A DNA stretch of 64,000 bases from Novibacillus thermophilus. Lineage in GTDB: Bacteria > Bacillota > Bacilli > Thermoactinomycetales > Novibacillaceae. The first letter of the stretch is position 1. Each line of letters opens with the position of its first letter. The stretch spans positions 1,674,001 through 1,738,000 of the forward strand of contig NZ_CP019699.1 of assembly GCF_002005165.1 (NCBI RefSeq), read 5' to 3'. This document shows positions 6,126 through 39,024 of this stretch, piece by piece. Made by a program: the position numbers and the translations under genes. Under the pieces are notes generated by a model. The model was not told the DNA's origin and searched no databases. It saw only the letters and a program-made list of their open reading frames with translations.

Positions 6126-6130
6126 TCCCG

Positions 6131-9843: not shown

Positions 9844-9862
9844 AGAGTACAGGCACGTTGGC

Positions 9863-10409: not shown

Positions 10410-10445
10410 GGAGACAGTGATGACCTCGCGTTGGAGGGAATAACG

Positions 10446-11402: not shown

Positions 11403-11508
11403 TGCGAAAAAGGAGCCTGGGTTAGGGCGGGGACGCTGTCGGCTAGATGCGTGAAGCCTGTCGTTGATAGAGATGTGGTTGGATGAAGGCGATATCATTA
11501 AACAACAG

Positions 11509-11540
11509 AGAGGCTGGGACACTTTCCCGGCCTCTTTAGT
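11509..11540. terminator. Bidirectional terminator between ispH and the FlhA-like gene
   Basis: An 11-bp stem (11509-11519 with 11525-11535, one G-U pair) around a 5-base loop, followed by TTTAG. It lies between two convergent genes and can serve both. Confidence 0.7.
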
Positions 11541-12606: not shown

Positions 12607-12748
12607 CAAGGGTGATTCCTCCGAAGTGAAACATCTGTTTTTTTCATTATTATAACAAACCTTCACGTTTGTGCCCTTCCATTTTTGACAACAATTCGTG
12701 GTAAAATAAAAAGATAAGAGAGAGCGCGTGTCCGAAAGGGAGGGGCCC

Positions 12749-13678: not shown

Positions 13679-13707
13679 CAGGATGTTCGGTACTTTATAG
13701 TTAGATA

Positions 13708-13724
13708 CTATGATCAGGTACTAA
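13708..13724 (+). promoter_or_regulatory. Candidate FapR operator upstream of fabI
   Basis: The right half, CAGGTACTAA, fits the FapR consensus (TTAGTACCTGATACTAA) apart from the central base; the left half (CTATGAT) is poor. fabI is a known FapR target in B. subtilis, so the site is plausible. It lies 23 bases before the fabI start. Confidence 0.45.
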
Positions 13725-13746
13725 ACTCATGAAACGAGGGATCGGA

Positions 13747-14523: not shown

Positions 14524-14695
14524 TGGGAAAAAGACACAATTTTTTGTTTAGGTGAGGTAGGAAAATTCCGTTTTTCATAGTATTATATAATTAGCAACTA
14601 CCGGGGTCCTCGTTTATCGGATTCTGTGATAAGTTGTTAGTAGCGGAATCACAACATACTGATGAAACTGATCTGAAGAAAAGGAGGAAAAAGAT

Positions 14696-14929
14696 ATGCC
14701 CTACGTCATAACATCCGCTTGCAAAGACGAAATGGCGGCTGACTGCGTGGAAGAGTGCCCCGTCGACTGCATACACGAAGGTCCGGATCAGTACTACATC
14801 GATCCTGATACGTGTATCGACTGCGGTGCTTGTGAACCGGTTTGTCCGGTGGAAGCCATCTATCAAGACGAATTTGTACCTGAAGAAGAGCAAGAGTACA
14901 TTGAAAAGAACAGGGCATTTTTTGAGTAG
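14696..14929 (+). CDS. 7Fe ferredoxin ([3Fe-4S][4Fe-4S])
   Basis: A 77-residue acidic ferredoxin. Cysteines at 9, 17, 21, 25, 40, 43, 46 and 50 match the Azotobacter FdI-type spacing: C9, C17 and C50 for a 3Fe cluster, and C40, C43, C46 and C21 for a 4Fe cluster. C25 is the extra non-ligand cysteine. The residue equivalent to the fourth ligand of cluster I (about position 12) is Glu, which argues for 3Fe rather than 2x[4Fe-4S]. AAGGAGG lies 7-13 bases before the ATG. It is a single-gene unit and probably a general electron carrier. Confidence 0.9.
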   Translation: MPYVITSACKDEMAADCVEECPVDCIHEGPDQYYIDPDTCIDCGACEPVCPVEAIYQDEFVPEEEQEYIEKNRAFFE

Positions 14930-14938
14930 TTGGTCGGG

Positions 14939-14966
14939 GGGCGCGCCAAAAGCGTGCCCTTTCTTA
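14939..14966 (+). terminator. Ferredoxin gene terminator
   Basis: GGGCGCGC (14939-14946) pairs with GCGTGCCC (14952-14959), one G-U pair, 5-base loop, then TTTCTT. Confidence 0.75.
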
Positions 14967-15005
14967 TTGATAAACTGATAAAAACGAATTTCCGCTTTAA
15001 GGAAT

Positions 15006-15019
15006 TGGAAGCGCTTGCA
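15006..15019 (+). promoter_or_regulatory. Candidate cre site (CcpA) of the fad operon
   Basis: TGGAAGCGCTTGCA fits the CcpA catabolite-response consensus (TGNAANCGNWNNCW) at every fixed position. It lies 112 bases before fadN. Carbon catabolite repression of the FadR regulon is known in B. subtilis, so glucose repression of this operon is expected. Confidence 0.65.
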
Positions 15020-15079
15020 AAATCATAGAATACTAATGCGCTTTTTACTGAAAAGGATCAAGCTCGTCTGACTCTAAAA

Positions 15080-15097
15080 TGAATGAATGTTCATTCA
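15080..15097 (+). promoter_or_regulatory. FadR operator of the fad operon
   Basis: TGAATGAATGTTCATTCA has perfect 7-base inverted arms (TGAATGA/TCATTCA) and matches the B. subtilis FadR (YsiA) operator TGAATGAnTAnTCATTCA. It sits 20 bases before the fadN start, so a bound repressor would block transcription until long-chain acyl-CoA releases it. Confidence 0.85.
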
Positions 15098-15117
15098 ATA
15101 TTTGCGGGGGGAAACTT

Positions 15118-24619: not shown

Positions 24620-27301
24620 GTGAAGGGGCGCAAAGTTCAATGGCTGTCCATCGTGTTTTCGCTGTTGCTCGTGTTGAGCATAGGTGTGCCTTTGGGACAA
24701 GCTCAGAACGCGGACCCCGGTGATAACACGGGGTACGAACCTGAAAATCCGGGTGTGCGAGCTGAACAGACAGCAGAAGGCGACCTTGGCATGGTTGTGA
24801 CAGCACATCCACTCGCTTCAAAAGTGGGAGCAGAGGTGCTGGAGAGAGGTGGGAATGCCGTTGATGCCGCTGTCGCCGTTCAGCTGGCTTTAAATGTCGT
24901 GGAGCCAATGATGTCAGGGATCGGCGGTGGCGGATTCATGATGTTCTACGACGCCGAGAATGAAAAGGTTTCCATCGTGAACAGCAGAGAGCGAGCTCCT
25001 GCCGGCGCGACTCCCGATATGTTTATCGACAAAAGCAATGCCGTTACAGGAGCAGGCAAATTTTTGCTGGGAGCCAACGAATTGAACAATGAAGGAGGAG
25101 GAGAGTTCCATATCGGGGAAGTAGCTGTCTACGATCTGGATCGACCGTCCTCCGACGGCCCCGTTTTTAGCTACGACTTTGAAGGAGAGGAAGGCGCTTC
25201 TTGGGATCTGGAGAAGTTTTCTCTGTTTGAGCGGGGCACGACGTTTACGTTGGATCAAGACGGAGGGAAAATTACGTTCGGGCCTCCCGTCGGCAACAAC
25301 AGCACCTCGTATGGCCAGACGACGGCGGTGATGGATGAGGTTGAAAACAGTGAACTGCTCATGCGTTTCCGCACGGATGATCCCGGTGACGACCGACGCA
25401 TTCGGTTGTGGCTGCGCGCTGACGATTACAGGTCCCAGGGCACGACATTTGCGAAAAACGGTTACGGTGTTGAAATTGAAACGAAGTCGAAGACCGTCAA
25501 GCTAATTCAGTCTAAAGACTCCAGCAGTTCAACGCTAAGCACTTTCCACTACGACACCACGTCTGACTGGCAGTGGATACGATTCCGCGTAGACGGGAGC
25601 GAACTGAAGGTACGTTTGTGGACAGACGGTAGCGAAGAGCCGGACACCTGGGATGTGGAAACGGTAGCCGGCAGTGTGATCCCCTTTCAAGAACGTGTCC
25701 GAAGCGGCCGTTCTGTCGGAGTTCCGGGAACTTTGAAAGGGTTAGAGGCGGCCCTTGAGAAGTGGGGAACGATGCCGCTGGAAGAACTGATCGAGCCTGC
25801 GATAGAACTGGCCGAGGATGGTGTCGAGGTCAACTGGGTGCTGGCTGACGCGATTGCCAGCAATGCGGACAAGCTGTCCCGCACAGCGGCGAAAGATGTC
25901 TTCTTGCCAAATGGAGAACCGTTGGAAGAAGGGGATCTGCTCGTCCAAAAAGATCTTGCTAAAACATTTAAACTCATTCGCGATCACGGCACTGACGTGT
26001 TTTACAGCGGTGAAATAGGGGCTGCACTGGCCGACGTCGTACAGCAATTTGACGGCAGCATGACGTTGGACGACCTCAAGAGGTACGATGTGACCTACGA
26101 TACGCCAGTGTGGGGCGAATACCTCGGCTACGATATTGCGTCTATGCCGCCGCCGAGCTCAGGCGGACTGACGATGCTGCAACTGCTGAAGATGTTTGAG
26201 GAATTGGATTTGACGCAGTACGACGTGCGGTCTCCAGAGAAATACCACTACATGACAGAAGCGATGCACCTGGCGTATGCAGATCGCGGGGCGTATATGG
26301 GAGATCCGGAGTACGTTGAGGTGCCGAAAGAAGGGTTACTGCACCCCGACTACGTTCGTGAACGTGTTGCGACGATAGACCCCGACAGGGCCAATCCCGA
26401 TGTCCGACCGGGGAATCCTTGGGAGTATCAAGACGGTGAACCGACACAGGCGGTCGAGCAAGTAGACGATAAAGTGGAAGGGCAGACGACACACTTCACG
26501 GTCGCAGACCGTTGGGGGAACCTCGTCTCTTATACGACGACAATTGAACAGGTGTTCGGATCTGGGATCATGGTACCGGGTTACGGCATTATGCTCAACA
26601 ACGAGCTGACGGACTTTGACGCTGTCCCGGGCGGGGCGAACGAAGTTCAACCGAATAAACGGCCCTTGAGCAGCATGACACCCACGATTGTCTTAAAGGA
26701 CGACAAGCCCTACATGACCGTGGGCTCTCCGGGAGGAACGACGATTATCACCTCTGTCATGCAAACGATTTTGAATGTCATCGGCTACGGGATGGAGCTG
26801 AAGGACGCGATTGAGGAACCTCGCATCTACAGCAATCAGTATCCGAACATCCGTTGGGAGTACGGTGTTCCGGATCTCGTGCGCCAGCAACTGGAAAGCA
26901 TGGGTCACGCGTGGGAGTCGAGTCCGAGAGAAATTGGGAACGTGAATAGCCTGATGCTTGACGAAGATTCAGGACTCTACTACGGAGCGGCAGACTCGAC
27001 AAGAGAAGGAACAGCCATCGGTCTGTCATCGGAAGATTTGACAGTTGAACGAATGATAGAACGCGTTGAGCAATTTGAACGTGACGGCGAGATGGCGAAC
27101 AGCGATGTGGCCCGGCTGTTACGAAACCATTTGACTGCTGTCGGTCATTACGAAGGCCAGGGGTCAGTAGAGAAGGCTGTGAAACATATGCACAGTTTCC
27201 AACAGCTGCTGGATTATCAGAAAGAGCATGAACAGATGTCCGAAAGGGCGTACAACACGCTGTACGCCGATACAGAGGTGTTGTTGGAGAAGTGGAAGTA
27301 A
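24620..27301 (+). CDS. ggt: Secreted gamma-glutamyltransferase with inserted beta-sandwich and FIMAH domain
   Basis: An 893-residue secreted enzyme. A signal peptide covers residues 1-29. The N-terminal nucleophile hydrolase fold is very close to Bacillus Ggt: GGNAVDAAVAVQLALNVVEP, SGIGGGGFMM, NSRERAPAGATPDMF. The chain is then interrupted by about 210 foreign residues (141-350) and resumes with IPFQERVRSGRSVGVPGTLKG. The autoprocessing Thr is Thr623 in GQTTHFTVADRWGN, and LSSMTPTI and TVGSPGG are intact, so it should be active. The insert is a concanavalin/LamG-like beta-sandwich (YDFEG, LMRFRTDD, LWLRADDY, SDWQWIRFRV, VRLW). Residues 812-893 are a FIMAH-type helical domain. GGT hydrolyses or transfers gamma-glutamyl groups and can trim poly-gamma-glutamate. 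GTG 24620 follows AAAGGAGGGG. Confidence 0.92.
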   Translation: MKGRKVQWLSIVFSLLLVLSIGVPLGQAQNADPGDNTGYEPENPGVRAEQTAEGDLGMVVTAHPLASKVGAEVLERGGNAVDAAVAVQLALNVVEPMMSGIGGGGFMMFYDAENEKVSIVNSRERAPAGATPDMFIDKSNAVTGAGKFLLGANELNNEGGGEFHIGEVAVYDLDRPSSDGPVFSYDFEGEEGASWDLEKFSLFERGTTFTLDQDGGKITFGPPVGNNSTSYGQTTAVMDEVENSELLMRFRTDDPGDDRRIRLWLRADDYRSQGTTFAKNGYGVEIETKSKTVKLIQSKDSSSSTLSTFHYDTTSDWQWIRFRVDGSELKVRLWTDGSEEPDTWDVETVAGSVIPFQERVRSGRSVGVPGTLKGLEAALEKWGTMPLEELIEPAIELAEDGVEVNWVLADAIASNADKLSRTAAKDVFLPNGEPLEEGDLLVQKDLAKTFKLIRDHGTDVFYSGEIGAALADVVQQFDGSMTLDDLKRYDVTYDTPVWGEYLGYDIASMPPPSSGGLTMLQLLKMFEELDLTQYDVRSPEKYHYMTEAMHLAYADRGAYMGDPEYVEVPKEGLLHPDYVRERVATIDPDRANPDVRPGNPWEYQDGEPTQAVEQVDDKVEGQTTHFTVADRWGNLVSYTTTIEQVFGSGIMVPGYGIMLNNELTDFDAVPGGANEVQPNKRPLSSMTPTIVLKDDKPYMTVGSPGGTTIITSVMQTILNVIGYGMELKDAIEEPRIYSNQYPNIRWEYGVPDLVRQQLESMGHAWESSPREIGNVNSLMLDEDSGLYYGAADSTREGTAIGLSSEDLTVERMIERVEQFERDGEMANSDVARLLRNHLTAVGHYEGQGSVEKAVKHMHSFQQLLDYQKEHEQMSERAYNTLYADTEVLLEKWK

Positions 27302-27328
27302 ACTGACACCGGGGCATAGTTCATCCGT

Positions 27329-27385
27329 CCTCCCTGTGCCACTGTTTGGGGTGTCACAGGGAGGGGCCCTTCCATTCATTTTACT
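27329..27385 (+). terminator. ggt1 terminator
   Basis: CCTCCCTGTG (27329-27338) pairs perfectly with CACAGGGAGG (27355-27364), followed by a pyrimidine-rich tail (CCCTTCCATTCATTTTAC). Confidence 0.7.
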
Positions 27386-27580
27386 TTCGGAAAGGAGGGG
27401 TGGCTTGTCGGTAACGGTAAAGCGTAAATAAGTGGAAAGCTCACGACTGGATGAATGCTACACGAAAGGTGAAGCGCTAGTGGCAGCAAGCCTTCTAAAT
27501 CGAACATGTTTGTAGGAGGGGACCTCTGCCACAAGGGCGTGACTAAAAAAGAATTACTAGTAAAACGAGGAGGAGTTAAG

Positions 27581-28168
27581 ATGAGTGTTAAAAAGCGACT
27601 GGGCATGGGGATGATGTCCGCTGTCGTCGGTTTAGGGTTAATCGGAGGAGGGACGTTCGCCTACTTCAGTGACAGCGAGCAGACGAACAACACGTTCGCA
27701 GCTGGCACACTGGATTTGTCGGTCGAACCGACGGAAATCATCGCCATCGACAATATGAAGCCGGGAGACTCGATCATTCGCGACTTTGAACTGCAAAACA
27801 ACGGCTCCCTCGACATTGACAAGGTGTATTTAGAGACAGACTACACCGTTGAAGATGCCGAAGGCGACAACACGGAAGACTTCGGCGAACACATCCAAGT
27901 CGAATTCTTGTACAACGCCGACAAACTCGATGAAGTCGTATATGAGACGACATTGGCTGAACTGAAGGACATGACGCCGGAAGCCGTCAATCAGCACATA
28001 TTTGATCCGATTCTCGAAGAACAAGGGCTGCCGGCAGGCACACGTGACGACCTCGTCGTCAAGTTTAACTTCCTCGACAATGGCGAAGACCAAAACCAGT
28101 TTCAGGGAGACTCCTTAAATCTGACGTGGACGTTTACCGCTACCCAAACGGCTGGTGAAGCGAAGTAA
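27581..28168 (+). CDS. TasA/CalY (camelysin-like) matrix protein
   Basis: A 195-residue exported protein of the TasA/CalY (M73 camelysin) family. The N-terminus KKRLGMGMMSAVVGLGLIGGGTFAYFSDS is the family signal, cleaved in relatives by the dedicated peptidase SipW just before the FSD region. NTFAAGTLDLSVEP and NMKPGDSIIRDFELQNNGSLDIDKVYL are hallmark segments of the beta-sandwich core. In B. subtilis TasA forms extracellular matrix fibres; CalY-type proteins were also described as surface proteases, a point still argued. No sipW gene is in the window. It lies inside the secreted-enzyme cluster with its own AGGAGGAG ribosome site and terminator, so it may supply a matrix for the neighbouring enzymes. 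Confidence 0.85.
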   Translation: MSVKKRLGMGMMSAVVGLGLIGGGTFAYFSDSEQTNNTFAAGTLDLSVEPTEIIAIDNMKPGDSIIRDFELQNNGSLDIDKVYLETDYTVEDAEGDNTEDFGEHIQVEFLYNADKLDEVVYETTLAELKDMTPEAVNQHIFDPILEEQGLPAGTRDDLVVKFNFLDNGEDQNQFQGDSLNLTWTFTATQTAGEAK

Positions 28169-28247
28169 CGGTAAGCTGCAAAGAAGGGGCTCTCCAAAAC
28201 AAAAAAATCATAACCATGGGATATCAACGTTCCTAAAACGTGAAAAG

Positions 28248-28296
28248 GGCGTCTGTAATCCGAAAATTCGGCTTATCAGACAGCCTCTGTTTTTAA
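28248..28296 (+). terminator. Terminator after the TasA-like gene
   Basis: A long imperfect hairpin (GTCTG at 28251-28255 with CAGAC at 28277-28281, inner CCGAA/TTCGG, outer GGC/GCC) followed by TCTGTTTTT. Confidence 0.7.
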
Positions 28297-28349
28297 CGGT
28301 CGAATGAAAGTGGATCTAATTTCAGAGAAAGGATCGGGAGGAGGACGCT

Positions 28350-31247
28350 ATGTCCAGGCTCAAGCGGCGAAGTTTCATTGCGGCCCTCGTTTTTGCCTTG
28401 TTGTGTGGAACGATCTTGCAAGTGCCGAATGGACAGGTCCGGGCCGAGGAAGTGAGCTTCGACACAATTATTCGCAACGGAACGATTCTCGACGGATCCG
28501 GACTTCCGCGATACGAGGCGGATATCGGGATACGGAACGGCACCATTGCGCGCATCGGCGACTTGGATGACGATACGGCAGGAACAGAGATAGATGCTGA
28601 AGGGCTCTTCGTGACACCGGGGTTTATTGACCTTCACAGCCATGCATCGACGTCAGCCTTGCAGGAAGCCAAAAGTTCCCTTACGCAGGGCGTGACGACA
28701 GAATTGTTGAATGTCGACGGAGGCGGGCCGACAGATCTTAACGAACGCTATGCTCTAGAAGAAGAAGGTCTCGGGATCAACATCGGGGCGTACATCGGGT
28801 TCAACTCTGTCTGGGAGGAAGTCGTCGGCCATGAAGACCGCCGGGCGACACAGGAAGAGATTCGCGAGATGCAGTCCCTCATCAGCCAAGCGATGGAGGA
28901 CGGCGCCTTTGGCGTGTCTGCGGGGCTGTTTTACCGGCCAGCCTACTACGCGGACACGGATGAGGTGATTGAGGTCGTAAGTGCCGCGAGGGAGTGGCGG
29001 ACGAACTTCCCGCACCACATTCGCAACGAGAACAACGAAGTGGTGGAAGCGACAGCTGAAACGATAGACATCGGGGAAAAAGCTGGACTTCATCCTCACA
29101 TTACCCACATGAAGGTGATGGGCCCAGACAACTGGGGAAAATCAGTGGAAACGATTGGACTGCTCGAAGAGGCAAATGCCCGGGGGACTTACGCGACAGC
29201 AGACGTGTATCCCTATTTGCGCAGTCAAACGGGGTTGACGGCCATCGTGCCTCCTTGGGTTGAGGAAGGCGGATGGGAGGCGATGTTAGAACGCTTCGCC
29301 GATCCGGAACTTAGGCCCCAGATCGCACAAGAAATTGAACAAATTATGCACAGCCGTGTCCAAAGCGCAGCCGATGTGTATTTTCCGACCAAAAGAAGAA
29401 CCCTTGCCGATTACGTGGAAAAGGGCTTCGGCTACGATGGAACGGGGAAGCTGCTTTTAGGATTTCTCAACTTTGATTACGACAACGGCGCAACGTTCTA
29501 TATAGACGAGATTGCAGTCACGAATGCAGAAGGAGAGACGGCCTTCGCGTACGACTTTAGCGGCAACGACGGAGACGCCTGGGATCCGGAAGCGTTCGGC
29601 GACGAACTGTTCTCCTACCCGTCGAATGCCGTCAACTACAGGATTGAACAAAATGCCGGGCGAGTCGAGATCGCTGAAAGGCAGCAAGGGAATGCCAGTG
29701 CTTACGGCAAGGTCGAGGCCAACATGGAAAGTTTGGAAAACAGTGAGGCCTTGATGCGTTTTCGCGTTGAGGAGGTAGGGAATAATCAGCGTCTCCGGTT
29801 CTGGTTGCAGGCGGATGAATTTAGTTCGGGAAGTTCTTTTCCCGTAAATGGGTACGGTGTTGAGCTGCACCTTGGAACTGACCAATTCATTTTGTACGGA
29901 AGAGAGGATGGCCGCTCCACCCATTTCGGAAGCGTTGACGCCAACATGACGACGGACTGGCATTGGTTGAGAGTCCGTGTGCAAGACGGTGAGCTCGCCG
30001 TTCGCCTCTGGAAGGACGGTGTAGATGAACCTGCAGAGTGGGACATGGTACAAGACATTCCGGTTCCAGGAGATGACGAAGGGGAGGAAGAACTGACTCC
30101 TGGAGAAGCGACGATGCGCCTGTTGGAGACTGAAGGCAATCTGAGAACGATCTATAATTTCGGTCACGAAGACGACCTTAAACGCATTATGCAATTCCCG
30201 ATGACGGCCATCGCGTCAGACGGCGGTGCTACCACATCAGATAGTGTCCACCCGAGAAGGTACGGAACACAACCGCGTGCGCTCGGTTTGTACGTCAGGG
30301 ATAAAGGGTATTTGGAATGGGAAGACGCCATTCGAAAAATGACAGGGTTACCTGCTACGATCATCGGCATGACGGACCGCGGATTTATTGCGGAAGGTAT
30401 GGCCGCGGACATCACGGTATTTGACCCCGAAACAGTGGTGGACAGAGCGACATTCGACGATCCCAAACAGTACGCTGAAGGCATTGAGTATGTGTTCGTC
30501 AATGGAGAATTAGCTCTGTCTGAAGGAGAATTAACCGGAATACAAGCCGGTCAAGCATTAAAGCGGGCTCCTAACATGCCGAGTCGCCCGATGAATCCGT
30601 CAGAACCGATTCACGTCGAAGGGACGGGGGACTTGCTGCCGATGGATGCGACCGGGACTGAATCAGCCTTGCAAGTGGACTATTCTGTCGGCCAGGATCC
30701 AGACGCTCGGAAGGCAGAAGGACATTTCCGCATCCGTGATGAAAAGTATGAACTGAATTTTGAAGCAGAAAGTTTTGGAAAAATGCAAGTGGCCGACGGA
30801 TGGGTCAGCTTTACCGGTCGGGGGACGTTGAACGGGAACGAAGAGCGGACGTTTTTAGTGATTATCGACGAACACGAGCCTTTAGTCGATGACGAACGGC
30901 CAACGGTGACGGTTCAAATCGAAGGAATGGACGACATACGGGGATTTTTAGGCCAGGCAGATGAAGAACCTTCAAGCGTTGAGCTCATGAGGAAACTGAT
31001 TGGGGACTTTGCCGATGAAGGAGAAATTGCAGACGACACGACCGTGCGCCAGTTGCACACGCACTTGGCCGCTGTAGAGCGGTACGAAAAGACCGAAAAA
31101 ACGGACAAAGCAGTCAAACACATGGAGGGCTTTAAACAATTGCTCTCTTATCTGGAAGAACGTGAGATGATTTCAGGTAATGCCGCAACGATACTCTCGC
31201 ACCACGCCGATCAATTGATTGCCAAGTGGCGTCAGGCGATCGATTGA
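28350..31247 (+). CDS. Secreted D-aminoacylase-type amidohydrolase with internal beta-sandwich and FIMAH domain
   Basis: A 965-residue secreted enzyme. Signal peptide 1-32. Residues 36-360 and about 582-730 together form an N-acyl-D-amino-acid deacylase barrel: PGFIDLHSHAS (His96, His98), HPHITHMK (His250, His253), and late catalytic Asp624 in IASDGG, closing with FIAEGMAADITVFDPE. The usual cysteine ligand of D-aminoacylases (GNCG) aligns with Asp123 in NVDGG. Between residues 361 and 580 a beta-sandwich like that of ggt1 interrupts the barrel. A further beta-rich domain spans about 760-870, and residues 878-965 are a FIMAH-type domain. Family enzymes remove acyl groups from D-amino acids or split D-containing dipeptides. 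ATG 28350 follows GGGAGGAGG. Confidence 0.85.
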   Translation: MSRLKRRSFIAALVFALLCGTILQVPNGQVRAEEVSFDTIIRNGTILDGSGLPRYEADIGIRNGTIARIGDLDDDTAGTEIDAEGLFVTPGFIDLHSHASTSALQEAKSSLTQGVTTELLNVDGGGPTDLNERYALEEEGLGINIGAYIGFNSVWEEVVGHEDRRATQEEIREMQSLISQAMEDGAFGVSAGLFYRPAYYADTDEVIEVVSAAREWRTNFPHHIRNENNEVVEATAETIDIGEKAGLHPHITHMKVMGPDNWGKSVETIGLLEEANARGTYATADVYPYLRSQTGLTAIVPPWVEEGGWEAMLERFADPELRPQIAQEIEQIMHSRVQSAADVYFPTKRRTLADYVEKGFGYDGTGKLLLGFLNFDYDNGATFYIDEIAVTNAEGETAFAYDFSGNDGDAWDPEAFGDELFSYPSNAVNYRIEQNAGRVEIAERQQGNASAYGKVEANMESLENSEALMRFRVEEVGNNQRLRFWLQADEFSSGSSFPVNGYGVELHLGTDQFILYGREDGRSTHFGSVDANMTTDWHWLRVRVQDGELAVRLWKDGVDEPAEWDMVQDIPVPGDDEGEEELTPGEATMRLLETEGNLRTIYNFGHEDDLKRIMQFPMTAIASDGGATTSDSVHPRRYGTQPRALGLYVRDKGYLEWEDAIRKMTGLPATIIGMTDRGFIAEGMAADITVFDPETVVDRATFDDPKQYAEGIEYVFVNGELALSEGELTGIQAGQALKRAPNMPSRPMNPSEPIHVEGTGDLLPMDATGTESALQVDYSVGQDPDARKAEGHFRIRDEKYELNFEAESFGKMQVADGWVSFTGRGTLNGNEERTFLVIIDEHEPLVDDERPTVTVQIEGMDDIRGFLGQADEEPSSVELMRKLIGDFADEGEIADDTTVRQLHTHLAAVERYEKTEKTDKAVKHMEGFKQLLSYLEEREMISGNAATILSHHADQLIAKWRQAID

Positions 31248-31252
31248 GGCAA

Positions 31253-31303
31253 AAACACCCCCCTCAGACAGCGAGAAAGCCTGTCATGAGGGGGATTTTT
31301 TTA
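31253..31303. terminator. Strong bidirectional terminator
   Basis: CCCCCTCA-GACAG (31259-31271) pairs with CTGTC-A-TGAGGGGG (31281-31294) with one bulged A, followed by ATTTTTTT on the plus strand and TGTTTTTG on the minus strand. It separates two convergent genes. Confidence 0.88.
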
Positions 31304-31313
31304 CCTTCTGCGA

Positions 31314-32330
31314 TTAGTTCTCGCCGTGATAGGGCTCTTTCACCAGCTGTACGTTCCGCGGCAAGCCGATGTCGGCCATTGTTTTCAATCCTCTGACCGG
31401 TGTAGCGTGTAACAGCTTGCTGCAGTTGATGGCGATGGCAGCGGTAGCGGTATCCCCGTATATCCCTCCGGGGACGACCAGTTTTCGAGTTTCGTCGCCG
31501 TGTATCACTATTTCGTCCACTTGGTCTATCCCCGTCGCCATCACTAAGTCTAAAGCGATCGTTATACCTTCTGCCGTTTGACCCGTAGATGTTTGGTGCA
31601 GTCCAGCCACTTTATGGTCGTCTTGCTCAGACAGGGTCGGCTCAAGGCTGTTTTTAACGTTGCGGAGCTGTAGGTTTAATCCGTACGCAATGAGGCGAAC
31701 GGACTCTTCTAAACCGACATGGCCTATCTTCTGTTCTGCAGCTAACTGGTTAAAGGTGTCGATTTCCAACCCGACCCCCACCTTTTTTTGCAGGGGAAGA
31801 CGCCGTTTGGAGACGTCGACCCGCCTGGAGATTTGAATCGCCGTGATGTCACCGATCACCGCAGACAGGCAAAGTGCCAGCGTGTCCATGACAAATCCCG
31901 GATTTACTCCGGTCCCGAGGACCGTCAAGTGTTTGTCTTTGGCATACGTGTGGATTTCTTTTGCGAGAGAAGGGTATCGATCCCAAGGGTAAGAAAGTTC
32001 TTCGCACGTCGACACGACCGAAAAGCCGCAATCCAGCAACCCTTTTATTTGTGGCCAGACGCGTTTCAGATCAGATCCTGTGGCATGAATGGCAATGCCG
32101 CCTGTGGGCCCATCCTGTTTTTTTACGAATTCCTCCAGGGAGGAAACGACGGAGATCCCCGTTTTTTCCGTACTGGTCAGAAGTCCAAGATCTCTGCCAG
32201 CCTTTTGGGGGTCGATGTCGACAGCGCCGATGACGTTCACGTCAGGAGATTGAAGACACTTCTTCGCAATTTCTAAACCGATCGGCCCCAGGCCGTAGGA
32301 CAGTACATTCACAGGCTGAGGTTCGTGCAT
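31314..32330 (-). CDS. NAD(P)-dependent amine dehydrogenase-like protein (DapB-fold, diaminopentanoate dehydrogenase type)
   Basis: A 338-residue cytoplasmic oxidoreductase. The N-terminal Rossmann fold (VLSYGLGPIGLEIAKK, then GAVDIDPQKAGRDLG) belongs to the dihydrodipicolinate-reductase N-domain superfamily, and the overall pattern (CEELSYPW, GTGVNPGFVMDTL, GLHQTSTG) resembles 2,4-diaminopentanoate dehydrogenase-type enzymes of ornithine breakdown. The exact substrate is uncertain; an amino acid or diamine released by the neighbouring secreted hydrolases is possible. It is the only minus-strand gene inside the cluster. ATG 32330 is preferred over the longer frame because AAGGTGG lies before it. 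It shares a 327-base divergent region with ggt2. Confidence 0.75.
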   Translation of the reverse strand: MHEPQPVNVLSYGLGPIGLEIAKKCLQSPDVNVIGAVDIDPQKAGRDLGLLTSTEKTGISVVSSLEEFVKKQDGPTGGIAIHATGSDLKRVWPQIKGLLDCGFSVVSTCEELSYPWDRYPSLAKEIHTYAKDKHLTVLGTGVNPGFVMDTLALCLSAVIGDITAIQISRRVDVSKRRLPLQKKVGVGLEIDTFNQLAAEQKIGHVGLEESVRLIAYGLNLQLRNVKNSLEPTLSEQDDHKVAGLHQTSTGQTAEGITIALDLVMATGIDQVDEIVIHGDETRKLVVPGGIYGDTATAAIAINCSKLLHATPVRGLKTMADIGLPRNVQLVKEPYHGEN

Positions 32331-32657
32331 CGCGTTGATCCACCTTCCAGTAGAAGTTAATAGAGTACTTATTAAAACTACCATTTAGGCGCCATAAACA
32401 GAAATATAAGTTTTTTATATCCTTATAAGTAATCTCTATAAATCTGACGGTTTTATCGGAGCAATTAATAAGTAAATGTTATAAGGATATAATAAATATG
32501 TAATTTTAAAACATTCAATCAAATGGTAGGCTTTAATTAAAGTGTTCTACTCATTTCGTAGAGGAGGGATTACAAGCTTACACACGTTTTTGAAAATATA
32601 CGGGCTTTGAAATTATAAGGGAGAATTTTAAAGTTATACAGAGGGAGGAGAATGTGG
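32331..32657. promoter_or_regulatory. Divergent AT-rich regulatory region before ggt2
   Basis: 327 bases without a gene. TTATAAG occurs at 32423-32429 (inside the palindrome CTTATAAG, 32422-32429), 32479-32485 and 32613-32619. The same heptamer recurs in other promoter regions of the cluster. GGATATAATAAATATG (32485-32500) contains a TATAAT-type -10. The ggt2 ribosome site GGGAGGAG is at 32643-32650. Confidence 0.5.
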
Positions 32658-35465
32658 ATGCCACCGAAACACTTAAAACGCATCATCTGCACGTTTCTTG
32701 TCACGGTGTTGCTGCTGGCAACTCCTTTCACTGCATTTGCCGGGGACCCGGGAGATCCCCGCCAGGAGCCGGCAGCAGTCGGTAACGGGGGAGCCGTTGC
32801 GACGGAGCACGTAGAAGCGTCTCAGGCAGCAATTTCCATTTTAAAAAAGGGCGGTAATGCTGTCGATGCTGCTGTGGCTGCGGCAGCAGCACAAGGGGTG
32901 ACGCGTCCCTACTCCGGCGGGATTGGCGGAGGCGGGTTTATGCACATTTATTTAGCAGATGAGGATCGTTCCGTCATTCTGGACCACGTGACCGAGACGT
33001 CGGAAAACTTCGGTCCCGAGTCGTATATCAACCCGGAAACGGGAACGCTGTATCCCAGTAATATCCGAAGTTCCAGTGGCATGGCAACGGGTATTCCCGG
33101 GGCGGTCAAGGCGTGGGAACAAGCTTTAGAAGAGCATGGCACGATGTCGTTAAAGGAAGTGTTACAGCCGGCTATCGAGATCGCGGAAAAAGGGTTTCCC
33201 GCTGATCCCAACTTCATCCGCGAAACGGCTGAAAATGCCGACCGGTTCAGGTTGTTTGAAAGCACAAAAGAGCTCTACCTCGACGAAAATGGCGACGTAC
33301 CGGAACCGGGCACGATCATGAAAAACCCGGACCTGGCACAAACGTACCGGTTAATTGCGGAACACGGTAGCGACATTTTCTACGAAGGGGAGATTGCGGA
33401 AGCGATCATCGACACGATCCACAATCCACCTGTGGTTGAGAATCCGGAGCACGAAGTTTTGGCGGGGAACATGACGATGGACGACTTGCGCAACTACGAA
33501 GTCATACGCCGCGATCCGACACACATCCGTTATCGGGGGTACGACGTTTACAGTGTTCCTCCGTCATCGAGCGGAGTGACGGTGAGCCAAATATTGAATA
33601 TTTTAGAGGCGTACGACCTTGCCGATATGCCCAAAACGAAAGCGCTCCACTACTTCCTTGAGGCGTCGAGGTACGCTTTTGCTGATAGGAGTGCGTACTT
33701 GGGGGATCCTGCCCATACGTTAGTCCCGGTAACCGGATTGCTTTCCAAAGGGTATGCAGCAGAGCGCCGACAGAAAATCAGGGATGATTACGCTTCAATT
33801 GGACAAGTCGCACCGGGTAATCCGTGGCCCTATGAAGAAGATCCTGACAGACAACCGGACCCGCCTCCGGAGGATAGCGTGGCGTTTCACTATGACTTTA
33901 GCGGCAACGACGGCGATCCGTGGGATAAAACAGTGTTTGCCAATCTTCATTCTTGGCCGAGTACCCCGGCTGGCGCCACATTCCGTATCCAGCAAAATAC
34001 GGGTCAAGTCGTACTCGACAACAGGCAACAGGGGAACGGCAGCGCTTACGGACGTGCAACACCGGACATGCGCCCGTTGCAAGAGAGCGAGCTGCTGGTG
34101 CGCTTTCGATTCGATGAGTTGGGGAATGACCAGCGGTTGAGGTTGTGGATTCAGGCAGATGCCTTTAGTTCCGGCAGTTCGATGGCGGAAAACGGTTACG
34201 GCGTCGAATTGAACGCAGAGACGAAGAGATTAATCTTGCGCGGCAGGGAAAACGGCAGTTCGACCACGTACGGCAGCATCGACACTGATTTGACGACTGA
34301 CTGGCACTGGTTGCGGTTGCGGGCACAAGGTGATCAGCTGTCCGTACGACTTTGGCATGGCGAAGAAAATGAGCCCGATGACTGGGACATCGTGCATCAG
34401 CTTTCAGAGGAAGAACAGGCCCATCACGCATGGGGGAAGGTGTTGTTAAGCTTTATTAACTTTGACTACGACAGTGGCAACACGATCTACCTCGACGAAG
34501 TAACCGTCAACGATTTGAGCAGTGGGGCGCAACATGAGAAGGAGCTTGAAGGAGCAGGTGCTTCTGAAGGGGAGGACAGTGAAGAGCCGACCGAAACCAT
34601 CCACCTGTCCGTGAGTGACCGTGACGGCAATATCGTCAGTTATACGAGTACGATCAACAGCATAGGCGGAAACGGGATGGTCGTTCCCGGTTACGGTTTT
34701 CTGTTAAACAACGGCTTTTCCGGACGCATCCCTTCCCAAGATCCGGATCATCCAAACTATCCTAGACCGGGGCTGCGGATGTTGAGCGCCATGTCACCAA
34801 CCATCGTGACGAAAGACGGCGACCCTGTCATGACGGTCGGGGCTCCTTCGAGTAACCGGATCATTACGACGATTGTCCAAATTATCATGAACAAGCTGGA
34901 TCTCGGCATGACGCTGCCGGAAGCGATTGCTGAACCGCGTCTGTCACAGCGAAACTTAAGTGACGCAAAAGCAGAGTATGAAGAAATTTTCTTGGATGAA
35001 TACGGGACGTTGCTAGACGAACTGGAAGCAATGGGACATACATTTAAACCGGATACCGCTGTTCAAGGCATTAGTGCGGCCACCGGTTTGGAATTTTTGT
35101 CGGACGGGAGCGTGCGGGCTGCGGCAGAGCCGACAAGGAGAGGCGGAGGCAGTGCGATGGCCATCGACATGGAGGACATAGAAGAGCCCCCTTCTGAAGA
35201 GACGAGTGTGGCGCACATGAAGGCACTTGTCGAGCGCTTCGTAGATGAGGGCGAAATCAAGCGCTCCGAAACGGCTCGGCTGCTACAGACGCATTTGACG
35301 GCCGTAGGTCATTACGAAGACACGGGAGCGTTGGATAAAGCAGTTCAGCATATGACGAGTTTTAAACGGCTCCTTGATCACCAGCTCGGAAAAGAAGAGA
35401 TCTCGGAGTATGCTGCGGACACACTTAAGAGCCACGCAGATCAGTTAATCGAGAAGTGGCAGTAA
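32658..35465 (+). CDS. ggt: Second secreted gamma-glutamyltransferase, beta-sandwich inserted before the catalytic Thr, FIMAH domain
   Basis: A 935-residue secreted protein. A signal peptide ends near residue 27. The GGT large-subunit core is present (GGNAVDAAVAAAAAQGV, YSGGIGGGGFM, PPSSSGVTVSQIL), more diverged than ggt1. About residues 405-622 are a beta-sandwich of the cluster type (HYDFSGNDGDPWD, LLVRFRFDELG, LWIQADAF, TTDWHWLRLR, then LSFINFDYD and YLDEVTVNDL). It ends about 25 residues before Thr647 in TIHLSVSDRDGN, which aligns with the autoprocessing nucleophile of GGTs. LSAMSPTI and TVGAPSS follow. The last 80 residues are a FIMAH-type domain. So in this paralogue the insert sits at the future C-terminus of the large subunit. 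ATG 32658 gives better spacing from GGGAGGAG than ATG 32652. Confidence 0.88.
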   Translation: MPPKHLKRIICTFLVTVLLLATPFTAFAGDPGDPRQEPAAVGNGGAVATEHVEASQAAISILKKGGNAVDAAVAAAAAQGVTRPYSGGIGGGGFMHIYLADEDRSVILDHVTETSENFGPESYINPETGTLYPSNIRSSSGMATGIPGAVKAWEQALEEHGTMSLKEVLQPAIEIAEKGFPADPNFIRETAENADRFRLFESTKELYLDENGDVPEPGTIMKNPDLAQTYRLIAEHGSDIFYEGEIAEAIIDTIHNPPVVENPEHEVLAGNMTMDDLRNYEVIRRDPTHIRYRGYDVYSVPPSSSGVTVSQILNILEAYDLADMPKTKALHYFLEASRYAFADRSAYLGDPAHTLVPVTGLLSKGYAAERRQKIRDDYASIGQVAPGNPWPYEEDPDRQPDPPPEDSVAFHYDFSGNDGDPWDKTVFANLHSWPSTPAGATFRIQQNTGQVVLDNRQQGNGSAYGRATPDMRPLQESELLVRFRFDELGNDQRLRLWIQADAFSSGSSMAENGYGVELNAETKRLILRGRENGSSTTYGSIDTDLTTDWHWLRLRAQGDQLSVRLWHGEENEPDDWDIVHQLSEEEQAHHAWGKVLLSFINFDYDSGNTIYLDEVTVNDLSSGAQHEKELEGAGASEGEDSEEPTETIHLSVSDRDGNIVSYTSTINSIGGNGMVVPGYGFLLNNGFSGRIPSQDPDHPNYPRPGLRMLSAMSPTIVTKDGDPVMTVGAPSSNRIITTIVQIIMNKLDLGMTLPEAIAEPRLSQRNLSDAKAEYEEIFLDEYGTLLDELEAMGHTFKPDTAVQGISAATGLEFLSDGSVRAAAEPTRRGGGSAMAIDMEDIEEPPSEETSVAHMKALVERFVDEGEIKRSETARLLQTHLTAVGHYEDTGALDKAVQHMTSFKRLLDHQLGKEEISEYAADTLKSHADQLIEKWQ

Positions 35466-35786: not shown

Positions 35787-36686
35787 ATGCGTAAACCGAT
35801 TAAACGATACGGCTGGCTCATTTTTGTCTGTTTGATGGTGTTAGGCCTGTGCGTGCCTATGGCAAGTGGACAATCGGACCATTTTGCGGCACTAAAGGAA
35901 AATGTCGAACAGATTGCGAATTCCCTCGATACTGGGGAAATCGCGGTTTTCATCGAGACAAGTGAAGGAACAATTGCCATGAATGAAACAGACGTGATGT
36001 CTGCCGCTAGCACGATCAAAGTTCCCATTCTAGTTGAAGCCATCAAGCAAGCGGAGCAAGGGGATCTGTTTTGGGATGATGAAGTGGTCGTAGAGGAGTC
36101 GGACGCCGTCGGTGGAAGCGGTGTCATCAAAGATATGGAACTGCCCCAGACCTTTACCGTCCGTGAATTGGCGGAGCTGATGATCACAGTCTCGGACAAT
36201 ACAGCTACGAATATGATCATGGAACGGGTGGGGTTTGATGAAGTCAACTGGGCCTGTATTGAAATGGGATGTGTCGACACAGTGTTGCAAACGTCAATCT
36301 ACACCTCCATGCCGCAAGACCGCGGTCCGCACAATTATTCAAACGTGAAAGACATGGTGACCATCTTGAAAGGGGCGAATGAAGGAGGCTTTCTTTCCCC
36401 GGAGGGAAGAGAGGAATTTTTAAGCATTATGCGGGATGCCAATCAAGCCAGGTTGTCCGAGTATCAAGATCCGGAGCGCCATAAAGACATTCTCGTCGGC
36501 CGTAAAGGAGGTTCTACAGCCAGCCCGAGAGTGCTGCACGATGTCGGCATTTTTACGCTGGGGGATGAACATGTCTACGCTGCCGTCTTTACAAAGGACG
36601 TACAACCTAGTATCGCGACCCCCACTATAGGTGAGATCGGCAGAAGTATCATGGATTACATGGTTGAGTTCGATTCAACGGAGTAG
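35787..36686 (+). CDS. Secreted class A beta-lactamase-like serine hydrolase
   Basis: A 299-residue exported protein (signal peptide about 1-29). It has the three motifs of penicillin-recognising serine enzymes: S-x-x-K at Ser75-Lys78 (STIK), SDN at 136-138, and K-G-G at 240-242 in place of the usual K-T/S-G. No clear glutamate of an omega loop (E166-type) is visible, so strong beta-lactamase action is doubtful. DD-peptidase, D-stereospecific peptidase or amidase activity is equally possible. Unlike its neighbours it has no FIMAH or beta-sandwich domain. ATG 35787 follows AAAGGAGG. Its place among enzymes for D- and gamma-linked residues favours a peptidase role; that is inference. Confidence 0.82.
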   Translation: MRKPIKRYGWLIFVCLMVLGLCVPMASGQSDHFAALKENVEQIANSLDTGEIAVFIETSEGTIAMNETDVMSAASTIKVPILVEAIKQAEQGDLFWDDEVVVEESDAVGGSGVIKDMELPQTFTVRELAELMITVSDNTATNMIMERVGFDEVNWACIEMGCVDTVLQTSIYTSMPQDRGPHNYSNVKDMVTILKGANEGGFLSPEGREEFLSIMRDANQARLSEYQDPERHKDILVGRKGGSTASPRVLHDVGIFTLGDEHVYAAVFTKDVQPSIATPTIGEIGRSIMDYMVEFDSTE

Positions 36687-36750: not shown

Positions 36751-38721
36751 ATGTCTAAAGGGTTGAAAAGAATCGTGATCGTGGCAATTGCTTTCTTGCT
36801 GTTGCCGGGGACAGTTTTACACATGCCTGCCGGACAAGCTCAAGGAGAAGATGTTGAAACCGATTTGGTCGATTTTGTACCTGCTTGGGTCAAGGAAGGC
36901 GGGAGATCCGAAATGTTGAAGCGGATGGTCGATCCTGAACTGCGGGTGTCAATCGAGGCAGAAATTAATGAAATCGTCCAGGAGCGGGTAGAAAGTGTTT
37001 CCGATATCCGTTTTCCGGAACTGGGGGATACGCTTGAGGATTGGATGAAAGACTTCGACCGGGAGACAAACTTCGACTACGAAATTGAGCCGGGACAAGC
37101 ACTTTTCAGCTTCGTCAACTTGGACTACAACAAGGGGAATGCGCTCTACGTTGACGAGTTCACGGTTCATGACCTGGATAAAGGAACAACGGCTTTCCAC
37201 TATGACTTTACAGGTGACGACGGTGACACGTGGGACCCTGCCGCGTTCGGCGATGACCTTTTTGTATACCCGAGGAATCCGGATGCCGTGAGGTACAGTA
37301 TCGAAAACAATACCGGGAAAATGGAGGTCGATGCACGGAGGCAGGGAACAGCCAGCTCCTATGGGAAACTGACGCCTATCATGGACGATCTAGACAACAG
37401 TGAAGTGCTCATGCGCTTTCGAGTGGATGCATTAGGAAGTACGCAGTGGTTGAGAGTGTGGATTCAATCCGATCAGTTCGGCTCTGGTAGTTCGTTTGCT
37501 CAGAACGGTTACGGAATTGCGCTGCATCTCGGGACAGACGAGTTAGCCTTGCAAAGAAGGGAAGACGGTTCTACAACCAAACTGGACGGCGTGTCGGCCA
37601 ATATGACGACGGATTGGCATTGGTTGAAACTACGGGCCGCCGACGGCAAGGTTTCTGTCAGACTGTGGAACGAAAACGAAGGGGAACCTGAGGATTGGGA
37701 CATAGAATACGATATTCCGGAAGTGAAGAAAAAGGCCATGTTCAGTTTTGCGAACCTTGACCGAGATGACGAAAGCACATTTTATATCGACGATCTCGCG
37801 GTGGAAACACCATCTGAAAACGATCCTGTCTTCAAATATGACTTTAGTGGCGAAGACGGTGCTGAATGGGACGCGGAGGCTTTTGATCAACTTGACGCCT
37901 ATCCGGACTCGGACGATCCCAATGGCGTCACATACAGCATTGAACGAAATACCGGTAAGATTGAACTCGGAAAACAGCGCGACGCTCTAAACGCCTCTTA
38001 CGGAAAAGTCGTACCCAATATGGGGAACCCGATGGACAGCGATTTATTGGTGCGCTTTCGCACCGAAGAGGTGGGGCATGACCAGTGGATGAGGGCGTTT
38101 GTTCGGGCAGATGAATTTTTCGACGGCAATTCTTCGCCCCGAAACGGTTACGGCATTGAATTAAACCTGAAAACAGACCAGTTGACGATGTTCAAAATGG
38201 AAAACAAAAATACGTACCGTTTAGGTCGGATTGACGTCGATATGACGACCGACTGGCATTGGTTGAGATTGCGCGTTCAAGGTGACGAACTCGCTGTCCG
38301 CCTCTGGAGAGACGGTGAAGAGGAACCTGCTGATTGGGACCTCATGCATGAAGTGAGTGACAGCGTGTCTCCCGGTGAGGCGATGATGCGTTTGCTGATG
38401 TTAAGGGGGAATGTGACAACTATCTACACCCCGATGGAATCCGAGGAACCCGTTGAGCCCTCTATCGAGCAGATGATACAGCAGGTTGAGGAGTTTTGGG
38501 ATCAGGGAGCTATTGCACGTGATGAAACGGCCAAGCATTTGAAGACTCACTTGTCGTCGGTGGGGCACTATGAAGGAATCGGGTCTACAGAGAAGGCAGT
38601 CAAACATATGGAGAGCTTGATAAACTTGTTGGAATATCAGAAAGAAGAGGATTTAATCTCGAACGAAGCGTATGAAACCCTTAAAGATGGCGCTGAAACG
38701 TTGATTGCGGCGTGGCAGTAG
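36751..38721 (+). CDS. Secreted non-catalytic double beta-sandwich/FIMAH protein, apparent amidohydrolase derivative
   Basis: A 656-residue exported protein (signal peptide 1-30). Residues 41-98 (VPAWVKEGGRSEMLKRM, VQERVESVSDIRFPE) match residues 299-355 of the neighbouring D-aminoacylase-type protein, the last helices before its insert. Then come two beta-sandwich units in tandem (about 115-320 and 328-535), each a LSF/FSF-N-D...Y-D-E strand pair followed by YDF-G-DG, LMRFR/LVRFR, WIQSD/VRADE, TTDWHWL and VRLW. Residues 540-560 (SPGEAMMRLL, NVTTIYT) again match the amidohydrolase just after its insert. The metal-binding barrel halves are missing. Residues 570-656 are FIMAH. It looks like an amidohydrolase gene that lost its catalytic parts and doubled the binding module. 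ATG 36751 follows GGGGGAG. Confidence 0.8.
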   Translation: MSKGLKRIVIVAIAFLLLPGTVLHMPAGQAQGEDVETDLVDFVPAWVKEGGRSEMLKRMVDPELRVSIEAEINEIVQERVESVSDIRFPELGDTLEDWMKDFDRETNFDYEIEPGQALFSFVNLDYNKGNALYVDEFTVHDLDKGTTAFHYDFTGDDGDTWDPAAFGDDLFVYPRNPDAVRYSIENNTGKMEVDARRQGTASSYGKLTPIMDDLDNSEVLMRFRVDALGSTQWLRVWIQSDQFGSGSSFAQNGYGIALHLGTDELALQRREDGSTTKLDGVSANMTTDWHWLKLRAADGKVSVRLWNENEGEPEDWDIEYDIPEVKKKAMFSFANLDRDDESTFYIDDLAVETPSENDPVFKYDFSGEDGAEWDAEAFDQLDAYPDSDDPNGVTYSIERNTGKIELGKQRDALNASYGKVVPNMGNPMDSDLLVRFRTEEVGHDQWMRAFVRADEFFDGNSSPRNGYGIELNLKTDQLTMFKMENKNTYRLGRIDVDMTTDWHWLRLRVQGDELAVRLWRDGEEEPADWDLMHEVSDSVSPGEAMMRLLMLRGNVTTIYTPMESEEPVEPSIEQMIQQVEEFWDQGAIARDETAKHLKTHLSSVGHYEGIGSTEKAVKHMESLINLLEYQKEEDLISNEAYETLKDGAETLIAAWQ

Positions 38722-38780: not shown

Positions 38781-39024
38781 TAATCGGCTTGATGATCCCT
38801 TTATATTTTATATATTAACTGAAATTATATCAATATAATTTTAAATTATTAGTTATTTAGAAAACCTTTTGCTAGAATAATATACGAGTGGAAGAACAAA
38901 TTTGTGAGAAACGGGAGGTGACAGAGGAAAGGGTTGATACAGTCCCAACCTTTTAGCTGATTATTTGTGACAGTTTTTTAGACAGCGGTTTCATACTTTG
39001 AGAGAAAGAGAATCGAGGAGGGTC

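Follow-up and report, generated by a model that had tools for sequence, protein, structure and literature searches.

A circularly permuted module within the catalytic domains of two unrelated enzymes at a locus of Novibacillus thermophilus

A stretch of 64,000 nucleotides of Novibacillus thermophilus DNA (NCBI RefSeq assembly GCF_002005165.1, contig NZ_CP019699.1, positions 1,674,001 to 1,738,000 of the forward strand), hereafter the window, carries a module of about 200 residues within four genes, which code for two gamma-glutamyltransferases (GGTs; ggt1 and ggt2), a D-aminoacylase-like amidohydrolase (ami) and a barrel-less amidohydrolase derivative (mod). The module is made of a long piece A (about 170 residues, YDFSG ... 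DWDIV) and a terminal hairpin, piece B (about 30 residues, GKVLLSFINFDYDSGNTIYLDEVTVND). BLAST and profile matches place A before B in ggt2, as in lectins; in ggt1, ami and mod they put B first, and the module of these three is circularly permuted relative to that of ggt2. Across the genomes that possess it, the order of the two pieces tracks the place of the module: copies in linkers and tails are A-B, those in catalytic domains are B-A, and so are the copies of barrel-less derivatives. Comparison of the sequences makes two independent permutations likely.

Anatomy of the module and its sites of insertion

A sequence-only reading of this DNA had described one beta-sandwich module inside the chains of ggt1, ami and ggt2. 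The common descent of the three inserts was borne out by BLAST (E values of 1e-58 for ami/ggt2, 5e-37 for ggt1/ggt2 and 2e-42 for ggt1/ami, far beyond chance), the mutual identity of the copies in this locus being only about 32-58%. Their positions, close to those proposed, are residues 141-350 of ggt1, 361-580 of ami and 405-626 of ggt2, as indicated by alignment with the solved Bacillus GGT 4y23 and by Pfam, in which each host family is split into two stretches by a long gap that no Pfam family fills. The fourth gene, mod, lies beyond the coordinates given in that reading and brings two further copies, flanked by amidohydrolase remnants (a leader, about 75 pre-insert residues and a short post-insert piece). 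All four proteins end in a C-terminal FIMAH domain according to Pfam. In the source genome (G000; 3.63 Mb, a single contig) the module was confined to this locus, the genome-wide search matching five A pieces and, separately, two B pieces, and the profile search again five.

No Pfam family at E<=1 covers the module in ggt1, ami or ggt2. In mod, the one Pfam match was to DUF7277, where the second A piece ends (E 0.009, 17.1 bits, cut-off 27), and the only NCBIfam match over the module, choice_anch_R (E 0.024), also in mod, was under cut-off; no convincing PDB sequence was matched by the A profile (best E 0.63). The module has been overlooked by these two usual domain libraries. A profile search with the module alone, which the earlier reading had proposed, yielded other hosts (tails of M14 carboxypeptidases and double-module amidohydrolases); over the module, Pfam and NCBIfam gave no family at cut-off.

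To control for circularity, models of piece B were built from A-B rows alone or from B-A rows alone and run on the opposite class. The cross-trained models placed B upstream of A in 20 of 20 B-A proteins, with a weak extra match inside A in L034 and the second B of L147 missed, and downstream of A in 20 of 21 A-B proteins. A piece B behind the last A was looked for in ggt1, ami and mod by BLAST, by profile and with the cross-trained B model, and none was found.

The structures of the ggt2 (A-B) and ami (B-A) modules were predicted, each from an alignment of eight rows, with a mean predicted local distance difference test score of 92.9 and a predicted template modelling score of 0.90 for ggt2 (model mef4d723276db), and of 91.8 and 0.88 for ami (model m09db1d45d6da). 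Each model has 15 strands, which correspond one to one after a cyclic move: the last two strands of the A-B model (190-198, 205-216) are the first two of the B-A model (6-15, 22-33), the remainder is offset by about 33 residues, and in the B-A model a four-residue turn joins the old chain ends. One short helix per model is without counterpart in the other. With the same elements, a cyclic shift and no leftover of the moved piece, the two models, together with the B model on ggt1 and ami, describe a circular permutant. The A-B model is a two-sheet jelly-roll with 722 PDB matches at E<=0.001 in Foldseek, to concanavalin-A-like proteins along the full length of the module (1-221 for ERGIC-53, lectins and others), of which the carbohydrate-binding module CBM66 (4azz) is the best (E 1.9e-8, template modelling scores 0.58/0.75, 16% identity); in VIA, ERGIC-53 ranks best (3wht, Z 19.0, 194 aligned residues, root-mean-square deviation 2.9). 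The B-A model gave two PDB matches at the same threshold, both chains of the engineered circularly permuted beta-glucanase 1ajo. With the unpermuted chains that match best, from a phage fibre, CBM66 and a glucanase, its alignment starts at residue 22-37 and omits most or all of B, and the best VIA row reaches Z 12.0 over 169 residues with a deviation of 4.0. The permuted form is thus much harder to detect with an order-dependent fold search (2 versus 722 matches). On these models the fold is a concanavalin-A-like sandwich, in agreement with the beta-sandwich proposed earlier, and the inserts are related in both sequence and fold, contrary to what would have undone that proposal.

The host sequence of ggt1 (PF01019, E 1e-168; catalytic Thr at residue 623, aligned to small-chain residue 1) follows 4y23 on both sides of the insert, query 47-140 matching chain 33-126 and query 351-803 matching chain 126-579. 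Because the alignment breaks at the single residue 126, residues 141-350 are inserted without host loss. Six orthologues or homologues (L035, L094, L142, L143, L154 and L179) have an empty site, for example DMFLD..DGNVIPF against DMFIDKSNAVTG...AGSVIPF. A target-site duplication at the protein edges of the ggt1 insert was considered, but the similar ends are better read, by eye, as linker ends. In ami, the insert lies between TLADYVEKGF and LTPGEATMRLL, where six module-free homologues, about 34-37% identical (one from each of four among the eight other matched genomes and two paralogues of the source genome), have a short loop such as DISQELG-KDPCDTALDLL; the paralogue L061 aligns poorly near the site. 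Since such module-free relatives exist, the ggt1 and ami inserts are derived, and the placing of one module in the chains of unrelated folds is upheld. The claim that each host resumes where it stopped holds for ggt1 and ami, whose alignments are lossless, but in ggt2 the insert is not within the catalytic fold: it stands between GNPWPY and Thr649, in the variable linker before the nucleophile. Thr649 aligns with residue 1 of the mature small chain, so that with a GGT-like maturation the module would become a tail of the large subunit.

In the ggt2 of a genome of the same family (L094, 4445-6733), some 120 residues of filler with no match to the module stand exactly at the position of the window's ggt2 module, and the GGT2 linker seems to be a hotspot for added sequence. 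When compared with 4y23, ggt2 has HVT for SRE, SGR for TDF and LSAM for LSSM, the conserved glutamate-binding motifs of GGT; an altered specificity of ggt2 is possible on this basis. The same motif changes are seen by eye in the Virgibacillus ggt2 (L114, 2909-5749), and some other GGT2 proteins retain Arg there.

Distribution and descent of the module

A single-sequence search was positive in 1 of 101 genomes and a profile search in 1 of 42 genomes of the same order, in both cases the window's own. In a draw from the phylum, 3 of 398 genomes matched by profile, two of them with a distant domain in A-B order in phage-structural-like proteins (kind and order judged by eye). The profile was positive in both Virgibacillus sp. 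YIM 98842 and Geomicrobium halophilum, in 15 of the 159 genomes from the family of the Virgibacillus genome and, in two wider draws overlapping each other and earlier matches, in 6 of 299 and 4 of 397 genomes. The figures for the order and for the Virgibacillus genome's family rule out that the inserts are general among related genomes, the finding that would have overturned the sequence-only reading. A count of two loci by exact patterns was discarded as a measure of rarity: it missed a second Virgibacillus locus which the profile search of that genome found. In the viral contigs and phage records searched there was no match, the only one (23%) being in two records of one Haloarcula plasmid, and a phage or plasmid origin is not supported by these viral, phage and plasmid record searches.

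The counted set, defined by an A match at E<1e-20, comprises 49 modules in 41 proteins of 24 genomes. With A matches above that value, the L115 repeat proteins, L041-L043 and a weak match in the beta-lactamase-type protein of L144 were excluded. The 24 genomes were found via module searches, and module-free GGT2, AMI and M14 proteins stand outside the counts. All GGT2 (15/15) and M14 tail (6/6) proteins are A-B, 21 of 21 in total; GGT1 (10/10), AMI (6/6), AMI2 (2/2) and MOD (2/2) proteins are B-A, 20 of 20. AMI2 denotes two units in one amidohydrolase barrel: in L114 (5858-9403) and L147 (6923-10489), two permuted modules (B-A-B-A) share one loop. The inner A1-B2 linker of AMI2 looks canonical, and a nested arrangement is possible there. 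Tandem arrays occur in the GGT2 proteins of L145 (three copies), L178 and L179 (two each). By eye, the GGT2 proteins of L178 (2443-6570), L179 (3047-6793) and L175-L177 have dockerin-like or S-layer-like terminal repeats instead of FIMAH.

The module tree was rooted on three canonical-order domains of a Virgibacillus M14 cluster (L115), cut by pattern and with their order read by eye, more such domains being visible. In this tree the GGT2 A-B rows are basal, the GGT1 B-A rows group with the tandem GGT2 arrays L145, L178 and L179 (100/98), and the AMI, AMI2 and MOD rows group with window-type GGT2 and M14 rows (99/98). Two changes of order are required, and a single B-A clade is rejected by the approximately unbiased test (p 0.0004). 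The single clade was also rejected with 49 rows (p 0.00076, again two changes), with the A piece alone (p 0.0006), in a further set (p 0.002) and without the tandem-type rows (p 0.024); earlier sets of 40 rows gave p 0.020 and 0.003. The pieces themselves also differ between GGT1 and AMI. Piece B of GGT1 scores 1.56-2.11 mean BLOSUM62 units per column against seven array copies and 0.83-1.55 against 18 other A-B copies, and piece A of AMI is 47-54% identical to window-type GGT2/M14 copies versus 31-42% to other A-B copies. The trees root the module in the linkers of GGT2, and its spread is old and common to other Bacillota. The L115 locus (704-15955), a Virgibacillus cluster of M14 and other FIMAH proteins, shows tandem sandwich-like domains of canonical order by eye (KVWPYGEEEP...GKVGVGHVTSG) and is a possible source family of the module.

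Origin and role of the permuted copies

Our reading, to which we give a probability of about 0.7, is that the module of GGT2 linkers was copied canonically to M14 tails, was permuted into GGT1 and AMI separately, and binds a matrix or wall polymer. A lectin- or CBM66-like module would at first have occupied, with its pieces ordered A-B, the linker that precedes the catalytic threonine in a GGT2 subfamily, and a canonical copy from this pool would have passed to the tails of M14 carboxypeptidases. B-A copies would have entered the GGT1 hairpin and, as a separate event, the loop of the D-aminoacylase-like amidohydrolase. The permutation is most readily accounted for by tandem copies, as an A-B-A-B array holds a complete B-A unit: one period copied from the start of the A-B linker would yield a permuted module with both ends in linker, ready for insertion in a loop. 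The left edge of the GGT1 insert (VTDP-GKF) resembles by eye the A-B linker of the L145 array (VTDP-GRL), as expected if one array period was copied from its linker. The amidohydrolase would then have acquired a second unit, and one line would have shed the barrel to give mod.

As to function, the hosts are GGTs and D-amino-acyl hydrolases with secretion-type leaders (by eye), and Bacillus GGTs degrade poly-gamma-glutamate (PMC8062742). Since the nearest folds bind sugars, the hosts are secreted-type hydrolases and a camelysin-family gene lies in the locus, the likeliest role by analogy is holding the hydrolases on a matrix or wall polymer: the module would bind such a polymer and keep gamma-glutamyl and D-amino-acyl hydrolases on it, and in GGT1 and AMI its two connections would make it rigid beside the active site.

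Several observations weigh against this reading. In a 36-row set of A pieces that lacked L145 and L035, one branch (97/94) divided all the B-A rows from the others, so that the case for two origins is sensitive to the choice of canonical rows; that set predates the finding of L173-L179. Three changes are needed in the A-only trees of 40 and of 49 rows. An array donor should leave a B like B1 and an A like A2, and this signature was found for B only, the GGT1 A pieces being 30-43% identical to all A-B copies with no donor singled out. Among the GGT1 and AMI proteins seen there was no A-B-A-B intermediate, gain and loss of the insert are not told apart by the host tree of GGT1, and permutation has accompanied in-domain insertion in just two independent events. 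Weak B pieces also occur, namely those of L175 (E 1; the sole miss in the A-B class, where a B-like stretch is visible by eye) and the second of L147 (E 2), and the inner B pieces of L145 were assigned by eye. The presumed cleavage site of ggt2 reads TIH rather than TTH, and the second Thr matters for processing of E. coli GGT (PMC8062742), so that it is uncertain whether the module is released as a tail of the large subunit. A literature search for "FIMAH domain" found no paper.

A single permutation, in which a B-A module of one origin was passed on between GGT1 and AMI and the apparent second origin is a long-branch artefact, would account for the 24 B-A rows lying together in the 36-row set, and several rows are indeed long, two of them of odd composition. 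This is nevertheless unlikely: the single clade was rejected in five of five sets once seven canonical GGT2 proteins were added, and the A pieces of AMI favour window-type GGT2/M14 while the B pieces of GGT1 favour the arrays. For the order itself, the odds come close to even that it is a neutral by-product, breakpoints being commoner in the A-B linker, which is the longer, than in the short turn of B-A, with function indifferent. The linkers count about 8-15 residues and the turns 0-4 beyond the cut pieces, and by eye the GGT1 insert has linker-like sequence at either end; the M14 tails however received a canonical unit, so the other register is copied too, and the in-domain copies are all B-A, though resting on two events. 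It is somewhat less likely than not that insertion into a catalytic fold selects for or requires permutation, which would have used the same linker twice, independently, and would re-aim the binding face relative to the active site. The rule linking order and place may thus reflect selection of a re-aimed module or merely the breakpoint positions in arrays, two readings that are inseparable because there are only two independent events.

It is rather doubtful that the module is a structural spacer or regulator (salt stability, active-site shielding, control of GGT maturation) instead of a binder. The ggt2 module does lie in a linker next to the processing site, where extra sequence matters for maturation of Bacillus GGT (PMC8062742), and where the same-family ggt2 has its module-free filler, but the nearest folds are sugar-binding modules, the M14 tails involve no maturation site, and mod, which retains no enzyme, is 71% conserved. 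That B is swapped between molecules or neighbouring modules, with AMI2 and mod perhaps holding a canonical A1-B2 unit nested in B1-A2, appears quite improbable. The A1-B2 linker of AMI2 (DVSKEEVVED) resembles by eye the canonical GGT2 linker LSKEEKANNAL; a single B-A unit was however modelled as a closed monomer with high confidence, and ggt1 and ami carry one unit each. Each insert is kept in place across the genomes having it, as vertically inherited parts of the enzyme families would be, yet this explanation is scarcely credible given the module-free orthologues in the same-family genome G001 and elsewhere and the single positive genome in the order. Vertical inheritance is refuted for GGT1 and AMI, whereas the GGT2 linker insert is old and partly vertical.

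The locus, its relatives and known parallels

The coordinates of the features are collected in Table 1. The Virgibacillus locus L114 holds ggt2, an intact double-insert (B-A-B-A) amidohydrolase, a beta-lactamase-type gene, ami, a camelysin-type gene and ggt1, with the inserts at the same sites as in the window, as is also the case in other genomes. The double-insert enzyme of L114 has the layout of mod with the barrel and so explains the arrangement of mod, which is 71% identical between the window and the Virgibacillus genome. The related neighbourhood of the same-family genome G001 has ggt1 and ggt2 with neither module nor FIMAH in either. The hosts of the window are closer to Virgibacillus (82% for ggt1, 80% for ggt2) than to G001 (68% and 59%), which suggests that the inserted set moved horizontally; on these sequences the inserted genes probably reached this genome together. 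Their guanine-plus-cytosine content (50-54% for ggt1, ami, ggt2 and mod) is near that of the window (52%; Virgibacillus locus, 42.6%) and LysR gives no clear signal (60% versus 58%), so that any transfer would be old or from another source. Active spreading of the module within this locus, as formerly proposed, is not sustained: the same inserts occupy the same sites in Virgibacillus and others, the local copies have diverged widely, and the hosts stand nearer to Virgibacillus than to the genome of their own family.

FIMAH (PF22888) is matched 33 times in the source genome and not at all in 14 control genomes. It is absent from the ggt1 and ggt2 of the same-family genome, and the Geomicrobium ggt1 has FIMAH and no module, so that FIMAH and the module are independent additions. 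The product of 38998-41349 joins an M14 carboxypeptidase, a mid-chain FIMAH (40300-40542) and an M28 aminopeptidase in one chain. A camelysin-family gene stands beside ggt1 in three genomes (window, 27506-28168, by Pfam; L114, 13387-14317, and L035, 2281-2871, by eye), and comparison of translations by eye places it between ggt1 and ami in L114 also; in Geomicrobium it adjoins, by eye, a signal-peptidase-like open reading frame (2947-3513). The camelysin family is presumably TasA-like, and this neighbour hints at a biofilm matrix context.

Table 1. Module-bearing genes, their parts and neighbouring genes (positions in the window; iE, independent E value)
Feature	Position	Strand	Evidence
ggt1, gamma-glutamyltransferase (893 aa), in-domain module + C-terminal FIMAH	24620..27301	+	Pfam PF01019 in two stretches + PF22888; PDB 4y23 alignment
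ggt1 insert, residues 141-350, order B-A, in DxxG hairpin before VIPF	25040..25669	+	4y23 alignment; empty sites in relatives
B piece, ggt1 module	25055..25147	+	B model from A-B rows only, match upstream of A, iE 1e-6
A piece, ggt1 module	25163..25663	+	profile match
FIMAH of ggt1	27047..27289	+	PF22888, 7e-23
Camelysin-family (Peptidase_M73) gene, between ggt1 and ami	27506..28168	+	PF12389, 7e-92
ami, D-aminoacylase-like amidohydrolase (965 aa), in-barrel module + C-terminal FIMAH	28350..31247	+	Pfam; solved relatives 1rjp, 3gip
ami insert, residues 361-580, order B-A, short host-domain loop	29430..30089	+	BLAST, homologue alignment; model m09db1d45d6da
B piece, ami module	29445..29537	+	BLAST to ggt2 595-621, 59% identity, 4e-7; cross-trained B model iE 1e-12
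A piece, ami module	29541..30059	+	BLAST to ggt2 411-584, 55% identity, 1e-58
FIMAH of ami	30981..31223	+	PF22888, 4e-22
ggt2, divergent GGT (937 aa), linker module + C-terminal FIMAH	32652..35465	+	Pfam; small-chain alignments
ggt2 insert, residues 405-626, canonical A-B, linker before catalytic Thr	33864..34529	+	homologue alignments; model mef4d723276db
A piece, ggt2 module	33882..34403	+	BLAST; profile
B piece, ggt2 module (after A)	34434..34526	+	cross-trained B model iE 7e-15
Thr649 of ggt2, predicted small-subunit residue 1	34596..34598	+	aligned to residue 1 of small chains 2v36_B, 3a75_B
FIMAH of ggt2	35211..35453	+	PF22888, 3e-24
Beta-lactamase-type protein, upstream of mod	35787..36686	+	PF13354; same pair in L034
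mod, barrel-less amidohydrolase derivative (656 aa), B-A-B-A + FIMAH	36751..38721	+	aligns to ami flanks; intact double-module relative in L114 5858-9403
mod, first B-A unit	37093..37716 (B 37093-37185, A 37192-37716)	+	BLAST; profile
mod, second B-A unit	37729..38355 (B 37729-37821, A 37828-38355)	+	BLAST; profile
FIMAH of mod	38464..38709	+	PF22888, 3e-21
M14 carboxypeptidase + FIMAH + M28 peptidase, without module	38998..41349	+	Pfam; profile

Among known systems, the Bacillus GGTs 4y23, 2v36 and 3a75 share the host fold of ggt1 and ggt2, but 4y23 lacks an inserted module and its chain ends where the FIMAH of ggt1 starts; a literature search for GGTs with inserted domains found nothing relevant. 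The nearest solved relatives of ami, the D-aminoacylase 1rjp and the N-acyl-D-glutamate deacylase 3gip, have chains of 480-496 residues, too short for host plus module, and the loop lies outside the alignment shown. CBM66 of B. subtilis, the best Foldseek match of the A-B model, is an appended module whose ligand is levan/fructan ends, and it shares only 16% identity with the present module; the L-type lectins ERGIC-53 and VIP36, with the highest structural Z, are only 13% identical. Concanavalin A/favin and 1ajo share both the fold class and circular permutation, but concanavalin A is permuted after translation (PMC3320104). While 1ajo was engineered, the module described here is permuted in the gene and inserted in-chain.

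The plant-specific insert lies inside the chain of aspartic proteases. This swaposin of plant enzymes is the closest known parallel, being a permuted domain in an enzyme, explained by permutation from tandem copies (PMC3320104). It has however an all-alpha saposin fold and one host family, whereas our module is predicted to be a beta-sandwich, has two unrelated host folds, was apparently permuted twice and keeps canonical copies in neighbouring genes. In a 2026 survey (PMC13114784), domain insertions occur in 20% of multidomain proteins and circular permutation is set apart as distinct. Insertion and permutation, usually treated separately, occur here together, apparently twice, in one module family, and living relatives still show it in every state: canonical, tandem, permuted, doubled and enzyme-less. 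It can therefore be tested in single enzymes whether a domain must be permuted for acceptance inside another fold, and whether permuted domains arise from tandem arrays. Permutation with insertion in two unrelated hosts and with surviving intermediates is a new combination of known processes.

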